A stretch of DNA of 33,283 nt, from positions 1 through 33,283 of the forward strand of contig JABFRC010000200.1 of NCBI GenBank assembly GCA_013141375.1, written 5' to 3'. The position numbers and the translations under genes were made by a program. This DNA is from Methylococcaceae bacterium. Its GTDB lineage: Bacteria > Pseudomonadota > Gammaproteobacteria > Methylococcales > Methylomonadaceae. This document shows positions 2,457-21,870 of the stretch, piece after piece. Every line of letters starts with the position of its first letter. Position 1 is the first letter of the stretch. The notes under the pieces were generated by a model. The model saw only the letters and a program-made list of their open reading frames with translations, had not been told where the DNA came from and ran no database searches.

Positions 2457-4493
2457 TTGAAAAAACTATTTATTGTTTGTCTGATTTCAATATCAGCACA
2501 TGCCGATGAAACCCTGACCTTGCAAACCATGCAGGTCACCGCAGGTCGTTCGACCATTGACAGCTTTAACGTACCCACTGCTATTACCGTGATCGATCAG
2601 GATGACATTGAAAAACAGGTGCCGCAGATCCTGCCTGATCTGCTGCGGGGACAAACAGGGGTATTTGTGCAGGAAACCACCCCCGGCCAGGGAATTCCCA
2701 TCATCAGAGGTCTAAAAGGATCGGAAGTTCTCTATCTTGTAGATGGTATGCGACTAAGCAATGCCATTTTCCGTAATTCGCCGAATCAGTACACAGCGAT
2801 GCTTGACCCTTTCAATGTAGAAAGCATCGAGGTGTTACGCGGTCCATCATCATCCCTTTATGGCGGCGATGCGATGGGCGGCGTGGTGCAAGTGATGACG
2901 CCCACGCCTCGATTTTACGGCTCCGAATGGCAATCAAACGCCGCATTCGACAACAGTTATGCCAGTGCCGAAAATGCCTTTCAAACCCATATGAAACTTA
3001 GTGCAGGCAATGAGAAACTTGCCGTGCTGGGAGGTTTTGGGTATCAGGATTTTGATGACCGTGTCGCAGGGGGGGGTGAAGAGCAAGCTCATTCAAGTTT
3101 TAAATCCTGGGCGAGCAATAGTAAAGTCATTTACCACCCAAACAATGCTCATGAATTGCTGTTGGACATGCAGTATTACAACCAGCCTAAAACACCGCGT
3201 TATGATGAATTAATGCCGGGATACGGCCAAACCAACCCCAGCTCTTCAGTATTCTACTTCGAGCCCAACGAACGGCTGTTTTTGCATGGCAGATACCGTT
3301 ACACGCACAACACGCCGTTATTTGATAGTCTGGAGTTCCATGCTGCCCATCAACGAATCACGGATGACAGGCGAGCTCGGGATTTCGGAGATTCTATAGA
3401 AACCAGAGAGCGCAATGCCAGTCTTTTAACAGGGTTTACAGTTCAAGCGGCCCTGGCTCATTGGCCCCGTTCTCAATTGGTATACGGTTTTGAGTTTTAT
3501 CATGATGAAGTCGACAGCCGACGTTTTGATACCGATATCAATACAGGAACAGCTTCTACTGAAAAGAGTCGCTTCCCAAACGCTTCCACGATGGATTCTT
3601 ATGCACTGTATGGCAATGAGACCCTGCAGCTTGGCGAGCGCTTGCAGTTCATGCTGGGCACACGCTACAGCCATTACCATACGATACTGGCTCCGGCAGA
3701 TCGCGGCGTTGGCGCCAGGCTCGATCATGATGATGTCACCGGCAATGTCGGTTTGTCCTATTTACTGATTGACGGACTTAAATTTGTCAGCAACTTTGGA
3801 CGCGGTTTTCGTCCGCCGAATGTGTTTGACCTGGGTACGCTGGGCTCTCGACCGGGAAATCGTCACAACATCGCCAATCCCGCACTAACCCCCGAAACCC
3901 TATTGACCTGGGATGGAGGATTCAAATTTCAGAACAGGGTCTGGCAGGCTGAAGCTATCGGCTTTGTTACGGACTACCGAGATAAAATTACCAGTGTGTT
4001 GACCGGTGATAAGATTGCGGGACGTGATGTTGTTCAAAACCAGAATGTTAATAAAGTAAAACTTTACGGAGTAGAATTTGGCGCCCGATTTTTTGCCAGT
4101 GACCAACTTGAACTGTTTAGCAGCGTCAATTACACGCTGGGCGACGAAACCTTCACCGACGGCAAAAGCTTACCGGCAGACCGCATTCCGCCCTTAAATG
4201 GTCGATTCGGCCTACATTACACTCTGATGCCAACACTTTGGATTGAGTCTTATACCCGCTTCGCCAGCAGGCAGAATCGATTGAGTGGTCGTGATCGGGA
4301 TGACCCGCGCATCAATCCGGCGGGGACTGCAGGCTGGGCGACCTTAAATCTTCGTGCTGGCTGGAAACCCCATGAAAATTGGGCACTCCAACTGAGTCTT
4401 GAAAACTTGCTGGACAAAAACTACAGAGAACATGGCTCAGGCATCGATGCAACAGGCGTCAATGTCATCGCCAGCCTGCACATGACCTTGTAA
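2457..4493 (+). CDS. TonB-dependent outer-membrane receptor
   Basis: 678 residues, normal size for the family. The start is TTG: it gives a clean signal peptide (MKKLFIVCLISISAHA|DET), and no in-frame ATG exists between it and the REP palindrome. No good Shine-Dalgarno is visible. ETLTLQTMQVTA just after the signal is TonB-box-like. The plug domain (about 35-150) carries IPIIRGLKGSEVLYLVDGMR and VLRGPSSSLYGGDAMGGVV. The barrel includes FRPPNVFDLG followed by NPALTPE, which matches the FRAP/NPxL region of HmuR-like heme or hemoglobin receptors. The C terminus ends in an aromatic-poor SLHMTL strand. It imports a ligand across the outer membrane using TonB energy. Heme is one candidate, but metal chelates or other ligands cannot be excluded. 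No periplasmic binding protein or permease is adjacent. Confidence 0.92.
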   Translation: MKKLFIVCLISISAHADETLTLQTMQVTAGRSTIDSFNVPTAITVIDQDDIEKQVPQILPDLLRGQTGVFVQETTPGQGIPIIRGLKGSEVLYLVDGMRLSNAIFRNSPNQYTAMLDPFNVESIEVLRGPSSSLYGGDAMGGVVQVMTPTPRFYGSEWQSNAAFDNSYASAENAFQTHMKLSAGNEKLAVLGGFGYQDFDDRVAGGGEEQAHSSFKSWASNSKVIYHPNNAHELLLDMQYYNQPKTPRYDELMPGYGQTNPSSSVFYFEPNERLFLHGRYRYTHNTPLFDSLEFHAAHQRITDDRRARDFGDSIETRERNASLLTGFTVQAALAHWPRSQLVYGFEFYHDEVDSRRFDTDINTGTASTEKSRFPNASTMDSYALYGNETLQLGERLQFMLGTRYSHYHTILAPADRGVGARLDHDDVTGNVGLSYLLIDGLKFVSNFGRGFRPPNVFDLGTLGSRPGNRHNIANPALTPETLLTWDGGFKFQNRVWQAEAIGFVTDYRDKITSVLTGDKIAGRDVVQNQNVNKVKLYGVEFGARFFASDQLELFSSVNYTLGDETFTDGKSLPADRIPPLNGRFGLHYTLMPTLWIESYTRFASRQNRLSGRDRDDPRINPAGTAGWATLNLRAGWKPHENWALQLSLENLLDKNYREHGSGIDATGVNVIASLHMTL

Positions 4494-19220: not shown

Positions 19221-19964
19221 CTAGCCGAAGTCCACTACTGATTTTTCGGCGAGTTCCAGCAAGATTTGTAGCCCTCCATTTTTGATGATGTCAGGATTGG
19301 CGGGCTTCAATTCATCAGTGACTTGTTGAAGTACGTCCTTTGTTTGAATGCCTTCGTTTTGTTCAATAATTTCCAGTAAGCGATAGGTCAGCGGAGTTAT
19401 TTCGATAAAGTTCACTTCATCATCCGGATTACGATAGACCGCCAGAAAAGTGGGTTGCTCAGGCAGATTTTTCGGCAGACAGTCTGGTGAAATGGTATGC
19501 ACCGGGTACTGATAAACCAGTGGCCAGGCTAGCGGCGATAACTTGAGTTGGGCTTGCAGCGGATCATCTATCGGTAATGGTGCACTGACGTTCTCTTTGG
19601 CAATCGATAAAGCCATTTCCACCCATTCGTAATGCGCAAGCTCAAACATAAACGCAAAATCATTCGTGCTATCCCGTTCATCTTGCAGATAGCCGAGAAA
19701 TTCTTCAGGAATTTCAGAAAAAAAAGGCGATTGATTGTGGTGATTGGCAAAAAAATCTTCAGTCAGAGCTTGCCATTGTGCATCGTTAAGAATTTTTCTG
19801 AGCACCGGAAAGGTGCTGGCAAGAAAGCTATCAATATTGTTATAAAACAGCTGGCGGTACATCGCCATACGCTCCGGCTTAACGTCGGCTGGTGCAGGGT
19901 TGACCTGAGGATTTCTAATGTAAGCGGCAAACTCTTGCTGTTTGGCTTTAAAGTCAATGTTCAT
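19221..19964 (-). CDS. hvfC: HvfC/BufC-type RiPP maturation partner (DUF2063)
   Basis: 247 residues. The N-terminal DUF2063 domain has YRQLFYNNIDSFLASTFPVL, WQALTEDFFANH, SPFF and EFLGYL, followed by FELAHYEWVEMAL. The C-terminal part (YPVHTI, FLAVYRNPDDEVNF, LTYRLLEIIEQNEG) has a winged-helix look. In the known HvfABC and bufferin systems the partner protein binds the precursor leader and presents it to the DUF692 enzyme. Its ATG lies five bases after the hvfB stop, so the two are co-translated. Last gene of the cassette; no DoxX (hvfD/bufD) gene follows, since gpsA is convergent. Confidence 0.88.
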   Translation of the reverse strand: MNIDFKAKQQEFAAYIRNPQVNPAPADVKPERMAMYRQLFYNNIDSFLASTFPVLRKILNDAQWQALTEDFFANHHNQSPFFSEIPEEFLGYLQDERDSTNDFAFMFELAHYEWVEMALSIAKENVSAPLPIDDPLQAQLKLSPLAWPLVYQYPVHTISPDCLPKNLPEQPTFLAVYRNPDDEVNFIEITPLTYRLLEIIEQNEGIQTKDVLQQVTDELKPANPDIIKNGGLQILLELAEKSVVDFG

Positions 19965-19969
19965 TAACT

Positions 19970-20821
19970 TTAGGCCGATGCTTTGGCGTGCTGGTCGGAC
20001 CAGGCTGCTTGTATCGTTTTAATGGTATTTACTTCCAGCAAAAGCTCGGACAAAGGCGGAATATTGAAATCCCTTTCCAGTAAGGTTGGAAATACTCCGT
20101 AAAGTTCATAAGCCTTACCCAGTAAGTTCCAGACCGGGTCGATAATCGGCGCGCCGTGGGTATCCACCAAAAAATCGTCGGCTTCAACATAGTGTCCTGC
20201 GATATGAGCATAAGCGATGCGATGAGCGGGGATGGCTTTTAAAAAAGCTTCGGCATCGTAACCATGATTGACGCTATTGACGTAGATATTGTTGATGTCG
20301 ATCAGAATGTCGCAATTAGCTTCTTCCACCACAGCATTAAAAAAATCGATTTCCGTCATTTCCTGGCCAGGTGCGGCGTAATACGAAACATTTTCGATAG
20401 CGATTTTTTGTTCCAGAATGTCCTGTACCCGGCTAATACGTTCAGCTACATGAGTGACAGCTTCGCTAGTGAAAGGAATAGGCATCAAGTCGTATAAATG
20501 GCCGCCATGACTACAGTAGCTTAAGTGTTCGCTGTAAAGTTTGATTTGATGCTCGGCCATAAAGGCTTTGATGGCATGAACAAATTGCTCGTCCAACGGA
20601 TCGGTGCTGCCTATGGATAATGACAGGCCATGGCATATAAAGTTGCAGCGTTCAGTCATGGCGCGGAATTGTTTGCCCAATTTACCGCCGATGGGAATCC
20701 AGTTTTCCGGTGCGACTTCGTAAAAACCTACTTCTGATGGAGGTGCATTGAGTATTTTCGCCAAAATAGAACGTCTCAGGCCTAGACCGGCACCATCAAC
20801 CAAGAATTGAGTTGTGTCCAT
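19970..20821 (-). CDS. hvfB: HvfB/BufB-type MNIO (DUF692) peptide maturase
   Basis: 283 residues, a TIM-barrel multinuclear non-heme iron oxidative enzyme. Conserved stretches in order: GLGLR, EVAPENW, HGLSLSIG, SEHLSYCS, AIENVSYYA, LIDINNIYVNSVNHG, HIAGH, DTHGAPIIDPVW and LLERDFNIPP. These contain the His, Asp and Glu ligands expected for the iron cluster. Known relatives oxidise cysteines of EGxCG motifs to oxazolone/thioamide or thiooxazole groups that bind copper. The adjacent precursor with many EGxCG motifs makes it the near-certain substrate. AGGTG precedes the ATG. It is separated from the precursor gene by 77 bases holding a hairpin. Confidence 0.93.
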   Translation of the reverse strand: MDTTQFLVDGAGLGLRRSILAKILNAPPSEVGFYEVAPENWIPIGGKLGKQFRAMTERCNFICHGLSLSIGSTDPLDEQFVHAIKAFMAEHQIKLYSEHLSYCSHGGHLYDLMPIPFTSEAVTHVAERISRVQDILEQKIAIENVSYYAAPGQEMTEIDFFNAVVEEANCDILIDINNIYVNSVNHGYDAEAFLKAIPAHRIAYAHIAGHYVEADDFLVDTHGAPIIDPVWNLLGKAYELYGVFPTLLERDFNIPPLSELLLEVNTIKTIQAAWSDQHAKASA

Positions 20822-20898: not shown

Positions 20899-21765
20899 TT
20901 ATTTTTTAGGAACGTAGGGAATCACTTTGATCAGACTTTTATCTAAGCCGTATTTATCGTGCTGCTCGTCACTCTTCTTATCTGCATCGGGATGATGAGC
21001 GTCATGGCCCGCAGCTGCTTCAGGGCTGATAGTGGTTTGGGTATCTTTTTTAACGGCAGAGTCCATCGCGCCGCATGCGCCTTCCTTGCCTTTCATCATA
21101 GCACCGCAACTTTGCTCCAGGCCTGGTTTCATTTTGCCGCCTTGCATCATCGCACCGCACATGCCTTCGCCACAGGCGCCTTCGGCAGTTTTAGTTACCG
21201 GTTTTTCTGCAGCTTTGGTTTCAGTGGCAGCGGCACCGCAAGCGCCGTCTTTGCCTTTCATCATCGCGCCGCAGTTATGTTCAAGACCGGGCTTCATTTT
21301 GTCACCCTGCATCATAGCGCCACACATGCCTTCTCCACAGGCGCCTTCGGTGGCTTTAGCGGCTGGTTTTTCCGCAGGTTTACTGTCAGTCGTTCCTGCA
21401 CCACAAGCGCCTTCTTTGCCTTTCATCATGGCACCGCAACTTTGTTCCAGTCCCGGTTTCATTTTGCCGTCTTGCATCATTGCGCCGCATTTACCTTCGC
21501 CACATGAGCCTTCGGTTGACTTTGATGTAGGTTTATCGGCTGCTTTTGTTGGTTTGCCTGCACAAGCACCCTCGGGAGCTTTAGGGTCTTTCATATTCAT
21601 GCTGGCGCCACAGGCCATTTCTGCTGCGGCAACTTGCATATAGCCAGAAGATAACTCAGTCATACCAAAAGGATTGGCCTCGGCACTGACTGGGCTGGCT
21701 GAGAGTGTCGAGATAAATGCGGCACCCATCGCAGCCGCTAAAGGGGTTTTGTTGATTTTTTTCAC
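20899..21765 (-). CDS. hvfA: HvfA/bufferin-like RiPP precursor with three 55-residue EGxCG repeats
   Basis: 288 residues from a GTG start preceded by GAGGAG. Residues 1-28 are a Sec signal peptide (ending SPVSA). Residues 29-48, EANPFGMTELSSGYMQVAA, match the leader region of HvfA-type peptides. Then follow 14 cysteines: C52, C68 and four in each of three repeats starting at E85, E140 and E195, exactly 55 residues apart. Each repeat has EGxCGEGxCGAMM, a KMKPGLExxCGAMMKGK segment and [ED]GACGA, joined by Lys/Ala/Pro/Thr linkers. A His/Asp-rich stretch (GHDAHHPDAD) and IPYVPKK close it. Known relatives are exported copper-binding RiPPs modified on EGxCG cysteines. This one is much longer than the single-block precursors I know. 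Which cysteines are modified is unknown. Confidence 0.9.
   Translation of the reverse strand: MKKINKTPLAAAMGAAFISTLSASPVSAEANPFGMTELSSGYMQVAAAEMACGASMNMKDPKAPEGACAGKPTKAADKPTSKSTEGSCGEGKCGAMMQDGKMKPGLEQSCGAMMKGKEGACGAGTTDSKPAEKPAAKATEGACGEGMCGAMMQGDKMKPGLEHNCGAMMKGKDGACGAAATETKAAEKPVTKTAEGACGEGMCGAMMQGGKMKPGLEQSCGAMMKGKEGACGAMDSAVKKDTQTTISPEAAAGHDAHHPDADKKSDEQHDKYGLDKSLIKVIPYVPKK
21043..21513 (-). repeat. Three tandem 165-bp coding repeats in hvfA
   Basis: Units run about 21513-21349, 21348-21184 and 21183-21043 (the last lacks the linker). They are in frame and the protein repeats are nearly identical, while the DNA differs at many third positions, for example in the codons of CGAMM. This points to selection on the peptide rather than a recent duplication. 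Units 1 and 3 look closest at DNA level. Confidence 0.9.
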
Positions 21766-21822
21766 GGTAACTCCTCAGTTATTTTTATGAAATTCGATGA
21801 TGCCAGCGTTCAAACACTACCT

Positions 21823-21855
21823 ATGATACCAAATAGCTGTAAGGATCAGCTTACA
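21823..21855 (-). promoter_or_regulatory. Candidate hvfA promoter with overlapping dyad
   Basis: Minus strand: an extended -10, TGG followed by TATCAT (21828-21823), with an inverted repeat TGTAAG-N6-CTTACA at 21838-21855 covering where the -35 would be. The -35 itself is poor, as expected for a regulated promoter. The dyad is a candidate operator. A leader of about 50 bases would precede the GTG. Confidence 0.35.
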
Positions 21856-21870
21856 AAAAAACTTTAGGCG

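Follow-up and report, generated by a model that had tools for sequence, protein, structure and literature searches.

A three-block, Met-paired HvfA-family precursor in a methanotroph: a probable thiooxazole copper buffer

The window (the whole stretch of 33,283 nucleotides analysed here, from a Methylococcaceae bacterium) encodes an HvfA-family precursor in which a block of about 38 residues with two Met-Met pairs occurs three times. The repeat count is ordinary for the HvfA family and the Met-pair block is the distinctive part. We think it probable that the precursor gives rise to a copper buffer or reservoir of the thiooxazole type, modified by HvfBC at up to 14 Cys and exported, and that duplication of the block has raised its capacity. 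The gene, its partners, the contexts of its sites, the restriction of the block to one clade and the history of its duplication can be read directly from the data below.

The precursor gene and its partners

The precursor is followed directly downstream by hvfB and then hvfC. These genes and the N-terminal features of the precursor are:

20899..21765 (-), hvfA-like precursor gene, an open reading frame of 288 aa with a GTG start; NF050137 at 30.5 bits (cut-off 19.5)
19970..20821 (-), hvfB, MNIO maturase, 283 aa; NF003818 at 437 bits (equivalog cut-off 360); PDB 3BWW at E=1.8e-71
19221..19964 (-), hvfC, RRE/DUF2063 partner, 247 aa; NF050145 at 306 bits (cut-off 142); PDB 3DEE at E=1.2e-12
21771..21776 (-), putative ribosome-binding site GAGGAG, 5 nt ahead of the GTG, found in the sequence by eye
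21682..21765 (-), predicted Sec signal peptide, aa 1-28, MKKINKTPLAAAMGAAFISTLSASPVSA with the cut before EA, by inspection
21637..21675 (-), NPFGMTELSSGYM motif directly after the signal peptide, a candidate recognition element

An earlier note on this DNA had placed the precursor in the HvfA family, and the profile scores of all three genes agree. The precursor lies below the strict HvfA equivalog NF050188 (36.9 bits against a cut-off of 95) and above NF050137, so it is a member of the family but not a strict HvfA equivalog. Matches to it were found in 24/24 other genomes searched from the same family, and the GTG start is also used in all 3 available same-genus orthologues. Methylobacter tundripaludum SV96, which can be cultured, carries an orthologue as well (locus L095). 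gpsA is convergent with hvfC, and upstream of the precursor, on its own strand, come nth-rsxB-metG (names read from the sequences). Among 80 named relatives hvfB is near the precursor in 70, hvfC in 68 and nth in 67. In the region between nth and hvfA promoter-like elements recur; no regulator could be named there. One of them, TATCATA/TATGATA, is seen in the window (21770-21870) and in relatives, with TATGATA in 29/80 upstream regions. It is perhaps the promoter of hvfABC.

Some other open frames should be mentioned. A 203-aa frame lies opposite the repeat array (21032-21643, +), and is probably a shadow ORF that comes from biased composition. At one relative's locus (L070) the stretch of about 170 bases that runs up to position 4001, ahead of the precursor scored at that locus, codes for the end of another precursor-like ORF (PEGACAGAK...), a sequence that suggests tandem precursor genes. 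The window also encodes a TonB-dependent receptor (2457-4493, +) whose nearest models are heme/hemoglobin receptors, below their cut-offs.

The signal peptide was recognised by inspection from its basic n-region, hydrophobic core and V-S-A cut, and A28 is invariant in an alignment of 19 orthologues. In bufferin and HvfA the Sec signal peptide doubles as the leader (PMC13419390). By analogy this one is probably read by HvfC too. The NPFGMTELSSGYM motif is present in 100 of 101 distinct Methylococcales precursors and at 26 of 30 other gammaproteobacterial loci, with 2 of the 4 misses being contig-edge ORFs. It may be a recognition element that is retained in the mature product.

Fourteen cysteines in one context

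The rest of the precursor is divided as follows:

21562..21612 (-), N-terminal pair of candidate sites, Cys52 (EMACGASM) and Cys68 (EGACAGKP), from sequence and site contexts
21400..21513 (-), Met-pair block 1, aa 85-122, EGSCGEGKCGAMMQDGKMKPGLEQSCGAMMKGKEGACG
21235..21348 (-), Met-pair block 2, aa 140-177
21070..21183 (-), Met-pair block 3, aa 195-232
20902..21069 (-), C-terminal tail, from alignment and composition, ending in the genus-conserved KYGLDKSLIKVIPYVPKK

With starts at aa 85, 140 and 195, the units recur every 55 residues exactly; in the DNA, Tandem Repeats Finder gives 2.7 copies of a 165-nt unit with 78% matches. The earlier note described three exact 55-residue repeats. The period and the three units are right, and the exactness is not. 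Pairwise identity is 82, 92 and 89% for the 38-aa cores, and for the 55-mers it drops to 65-71% owing to differing linkers. No exact repeat is longer than 24 aa, a stretch that only units 1 and 3 share. The 38-aa copies differ synonymously at 11-16/38 codons; therefore they are not recent duplicates. The tail holds 4/5 His of the mature protein (GHDAHH, EQHDKYG). A similar stretch, SAASGHDAH, occurs in the linker after block 1 in the sister species, a likeness which suggests that block and tail were duplicated as one module.

There are ten motifs of the form [E/D]GxC[G/A], namely eight EGxCG, one DGACG and one EGACA, just as the note had counted them. Shuffles of the mature composition (n=2,000) give 0.08 such motifs on average and 3 at most. 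The note had also placed three CGAMM cysteines outside the motifs, which is correct, and had overlooked Cys52, so the total is 14 Cys. CGAMM itself is present 6 times, and EQSCGAMM and EHNCGAMM are among the site contexts that differ from EGxCG. Each of the 14 cysteines is preceded by E/D at -3 and followed by G/A at +1, that is, [E/D]xxC[G/A]. Given this shared context, dividing the cysteines into EGxCG ones and outside ones is probably not functional. The canonical Lys precedes Cys at 1 of the 14 sites and the other 13 depart from the EGKCG consensus. The residue before Cys is mostly Ala, Ser or Met.

Would the maturase accept such sites? According to PMC13097082, EGKCG-class MNIOs have Arg-Arg and Asp-Phe at their specificity positions, and in the Cys-Lys class the second Arg is lost and Asp replaces Phe. 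The HvfB of the window has RR and DF at these positions, and the second MNIO of the genome has RT and DD. Among the relatives' HvfB scored, RR is kept in 35/36 and DF in 36/36. That paper also shows that FonBC, a characterised relative, tolerates Ala in front of Cys and either Gly or Ala behind it. Under a site rule of the FonBC type all 14 sites are plausible substrates, though Met and Asn before Cys are not among the FonBC variants given in the passages available. The [E/D]xxC[G/A] context also holds for 805 of 923 Cys in 101 relatives.

One can instead imagine a thiol buffer rich in Cys and Met that is unmodified or partly modified, with HvfBC acting on a subset of sites, and that works mainly against oxidants or other metals. 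The 13 sites off the EGKCG consensus would fit this, and Met-rich disordered proteins are able to scavenge oxidants. However, the class signature of HvfB is kept across the relatives, and a free-thiol role makes no demand for the [E/D]xxC[G/A] context that most of their cysteines share. We regard this scenario as very improbable. As for disorder, AlphaFold2 gave the precursor no confident fold with 19 sequences (pLDDT 48.6, pTM 0.19), and low confidence of this kind is weak evidence that the chain is disordered.

The Met-pair block is found in one family

The orthologues of the family have a common block, CGxMM-x3-KMKxGxExxCGxMMKGKEGxCG. Its Cys, its Met pairs and its KMK are invariant in the 19 aligned orthologues, which were gathered by similarity and not by pattern. 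To map where the block occurs, its first half (CGxMMxxxKMKxG) was written as a degenerate codon pattern, and the reversed pattern served as a control. In the window's own family the pattern matches 110 of 127 genomes. It matches 0/74 genomes in other families of the order and 0/365 gammaproteobacterial genomes outside the order (4 genomes of the order were left out), hence 0/439 distinct gammaproteobacterial genomes outside the family, an absence that may be exaggerated since an exact pattern allows little variation. The reversed control had no match anywhere. Elsewhere in the order there are HvfA-like precursors of the canonical EGKCG type (loci L026-L029). One precursor from a sister family (L024) contains CGAMM pairs but lacks the full block.

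Of 101 distinct Methylococcales precursors 94% contain CGxMM, against 0/26 others, and Met makes up 11.4% against 4.4%, but both figures are biased because the named loci were fetched by Met-containing patterns and the comparison set by a Lys-biased model. The alignment and the family pattern counts were not selected in this way. Judging by these sequences, the Met-paired repeat type appears to be specific to one methanotroph family. The earlier note had proposed the Met pairs as extra soft-metal ligands beside the modified cysteines. This is the useful part of the note: the pairs, which are putative ligands here, do not vary among the aligned orthologues, and the full block is specific to the clade. 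A literature search found no description of the Met-pair block and none of HvfA-type genes in Methylococcales, though a prior report is possible. Spread by plasmid was also considered and rejected, since there was no plasmid match at the protein level.

Three blocks are unusual. Among the 110 matching genomes the pattern occurs once in 95, twice in 13 and three times in 2, including that of the window. Counting full blocks in 101 distinct precursors gives none in 11, one in 69, two in 15, three in 5 and four in 1; the window precursor is the second longest of these. Same-genus relatives have two blocks. Block 2 of the window is closest to block 2 of these relatives, and blocks 1 and 3 are each other's nearest match, with 29/30 identical residues in a 30-aa core. 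The kinship of blocks 1 and 3 together with two-block sisters implies that the third copy arose within the genus or was lost in the sisters. A recent tandem duplication can be rejected because the blocks differ synonymously at 10-15/30 codons of the 30-residue core.

It could be argued that block copy number is a neutral product of recombination with no effect on capacity. The family does range from one to four blocks, and low-complexity linkers favour recombination. However, the protein core has been kept despite those synonymous differences, which argues for purifying selection on each copy. We consider a neutral origin unlikely, and prefer the reading in which added blocks add capacity.

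Comparison with known systems

The earlier note took known HvfA precursors to carry a single block. They do not. In H. influenzae the motif AEGKCGEGKCG occurs three times in HvfA (oxazolin), which has six thiooxazoles (PMC13419390). FonA has seven sites (PMC13097082) and MmrA has three cassettes with five to eight Cys in EGKCG units (PMC12538549). The family ranges up to 506 aa and 58 Cys, the 58 Cys being in a piscicida protein (PMC12452194). Most of the complete precursors at 30 other gammaproteobacterial loci have 6-14 EGxCG-like motifs, in a sample biased to the best-scoring loci. A multi-repeat HvfA is therefore not unique, and this candidate novelty is rejected on the cited precursors and the 30 loci. 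The note had proposed a check of repeat count across the family: multi-repeat precursors are indeed the norm, and three copies of the Met-pair block are not.

A close comparison is the HvfA/oxazolin of nontypeable Haemophilus influenzae, which likewise has a Sec signal peptide, repeated E-x-x-C-G and adjacent HvfB and HvfC. Unlike it, the window precursor has mostly Ala, Ser or Met before Cys in place of Lys, blocks of about 38 aa with two Met-Met pairs on a 55-residue period, 14 Cys, and no HvfX (DoxX). A doxX (hvfX) gene often accompanies such clusters elsewhere, and PF07681 has no match in the whole genome (an assembly 96% complete), though it matched 7 of 14 control genomes. The Buf_EGKCG/oxazolin type 1 precursors (PMC12452194) also have doubled-motif repeats in variable number. 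Theirs are 17-residue repeats with a predicted beta-helix, whereas the period here is 55, a compound unit, with no confident fold. Fontiphorin, gonophorin and bulbicupramide (PMC13097082, PMC12538549) share the enzyme class and the [E/D]xxC[G/A] rule, and are reported to be thiooxazole copper binders. They are of the canonical EGKCG kind, and the passages available describe no Met-pair block for them.

Bufferin Buf2 (BufA2-BufB and DUF2063) has in common with this cluster an MNIO and a DUF2063-type partner, and bufferins are periplasmic thiooxazole copper binders. Its precursor is of the Cys-Lys type, however, with the other maturase class. Methanobactin (MbnABC) is itself an MNIO-made copper peptide, and its likeness lies in an MNIO-type maturase and a methanotroph host. 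HvfB of the window gives 268.6 with the BufB model (cut-off 310) and 50.9 with the MbnB model (cut-off 325). A bufferin or methanobactin identity is rejected for the window cluster since the scores fall short of these curated cut-offs.

A copper protein in a methanotroph

The genome encodes a PmoA/AmoA-type protein (PF02461, E=6e-129), and the named genomes related to it belong to Methylobacter and other Methylococcales. The host is thus a methanotroph with a copper enzyme. A profile search finds two MNIOs in the genome, one of HvfB type and one of BufB type, and no methanobactin maturase among them. The BufB-type enzyme belongs to a second cluster on contig C71 (L031:686-2797), with a BufA2-type bufferin (NF050166 at 85.7 bits, cut-off 60), BufB (386 bits, above the cut-off) and a DUF2063 partner, so both maturase classes are found in one methanotroph.

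For the modification, export, copper binding, participation of Met and physiological role we infer the following from characterised relatives. HvfC would bind the N-terminal signal/leader region of HvfA. HvfB would then turn as many as 14 Cys per chain into 5-thiooxazoles, one by one, each by an oxidation that removes 4 H. The chain would be exported by Sec and signal peptidase would remove the first 28 residues. The product, about 260 residues and presumably mostly disordered, would hold Cu(I) by its thiooxazole sulfurs, and the Met-Met pairs would act as thioether co-ligands. Its role would be to buffer or store copper in the periplasm of a cell that relies on particulate methane monooxygenase. 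Each Met-pair block would be a self-contained binding unit, so that duplication would give more capacity per chain.

The same protein could instead deliver or store copper for the assembly of pMMO, with the Met pairs tuning affinity or exchange for hand-over to pMMO or a chaperone. Buffering of excess copper and supply of methane monooxygenase look alike at the level of sequence. In favour of a role in supply, the full block is seen in a single methanotroph family. Met pairs are also typical labile Cu(I) ligands of periplasmic copper trafficking proteins. However, there is no linkage of hvfABC to pmo or known copper chaperone genes (its neighbours are nth, rsxB and metG), and other families of the order use canonical EGKCG precursors instead. 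We see supply of pMMO as possible, and buffering as the better supported role.

Another scenario cuts the chain at its linkers to make several small metallophores, near-identical secreted copper peptides of about 38 residues that would substitute for methanobactin. The earlier note had raised such cutting at Lys/Ala/Pro linkers. In its favour are the discrete blocks with low-complexity linkers between them and the lack of a methanobactin maturase in the genome. For several methanotrophs, M. album BG8 among them, genome mining turned up no methanobactin operon (PMC3621798), and the processing of EGKCG products is called unclear in PMC13097082. However, no protease, exporter or receptor gene adjoins hvfABC in the window or in the relatives' neighbourhoods, the linkers vary between relatives in sequence and length, and the blocks are similar but not identical. 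The single block in 69 of the 101 distinct relatives means that cutting cannot be central. This is an unlikely scenario, and we return to an intact chain as the copper buffer.

A more specific picture, which we offer tentatively and with some doubt, is that the family has a thiooxazole protein of its own. Mixed Cu(I) sites of thiooxazoles and Met pairs, set in duplicable blocks of about 38 residues, might make a copper reservoir or delivery system for methane monooxygenase in cells without methanobactin. Particulate methane monooxygenase needs copper in large amounts, which methanotrophs without methanobactin have to handle by other means. For that role a family-specific precursor of thiooxazole type, widespread and with its Met pairs conserved, is a concrete candidate. 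Precursors with one, two, three or four blocks also form a natural series, well suited to asking whether copper stoichiometry scales with the number of blocks.
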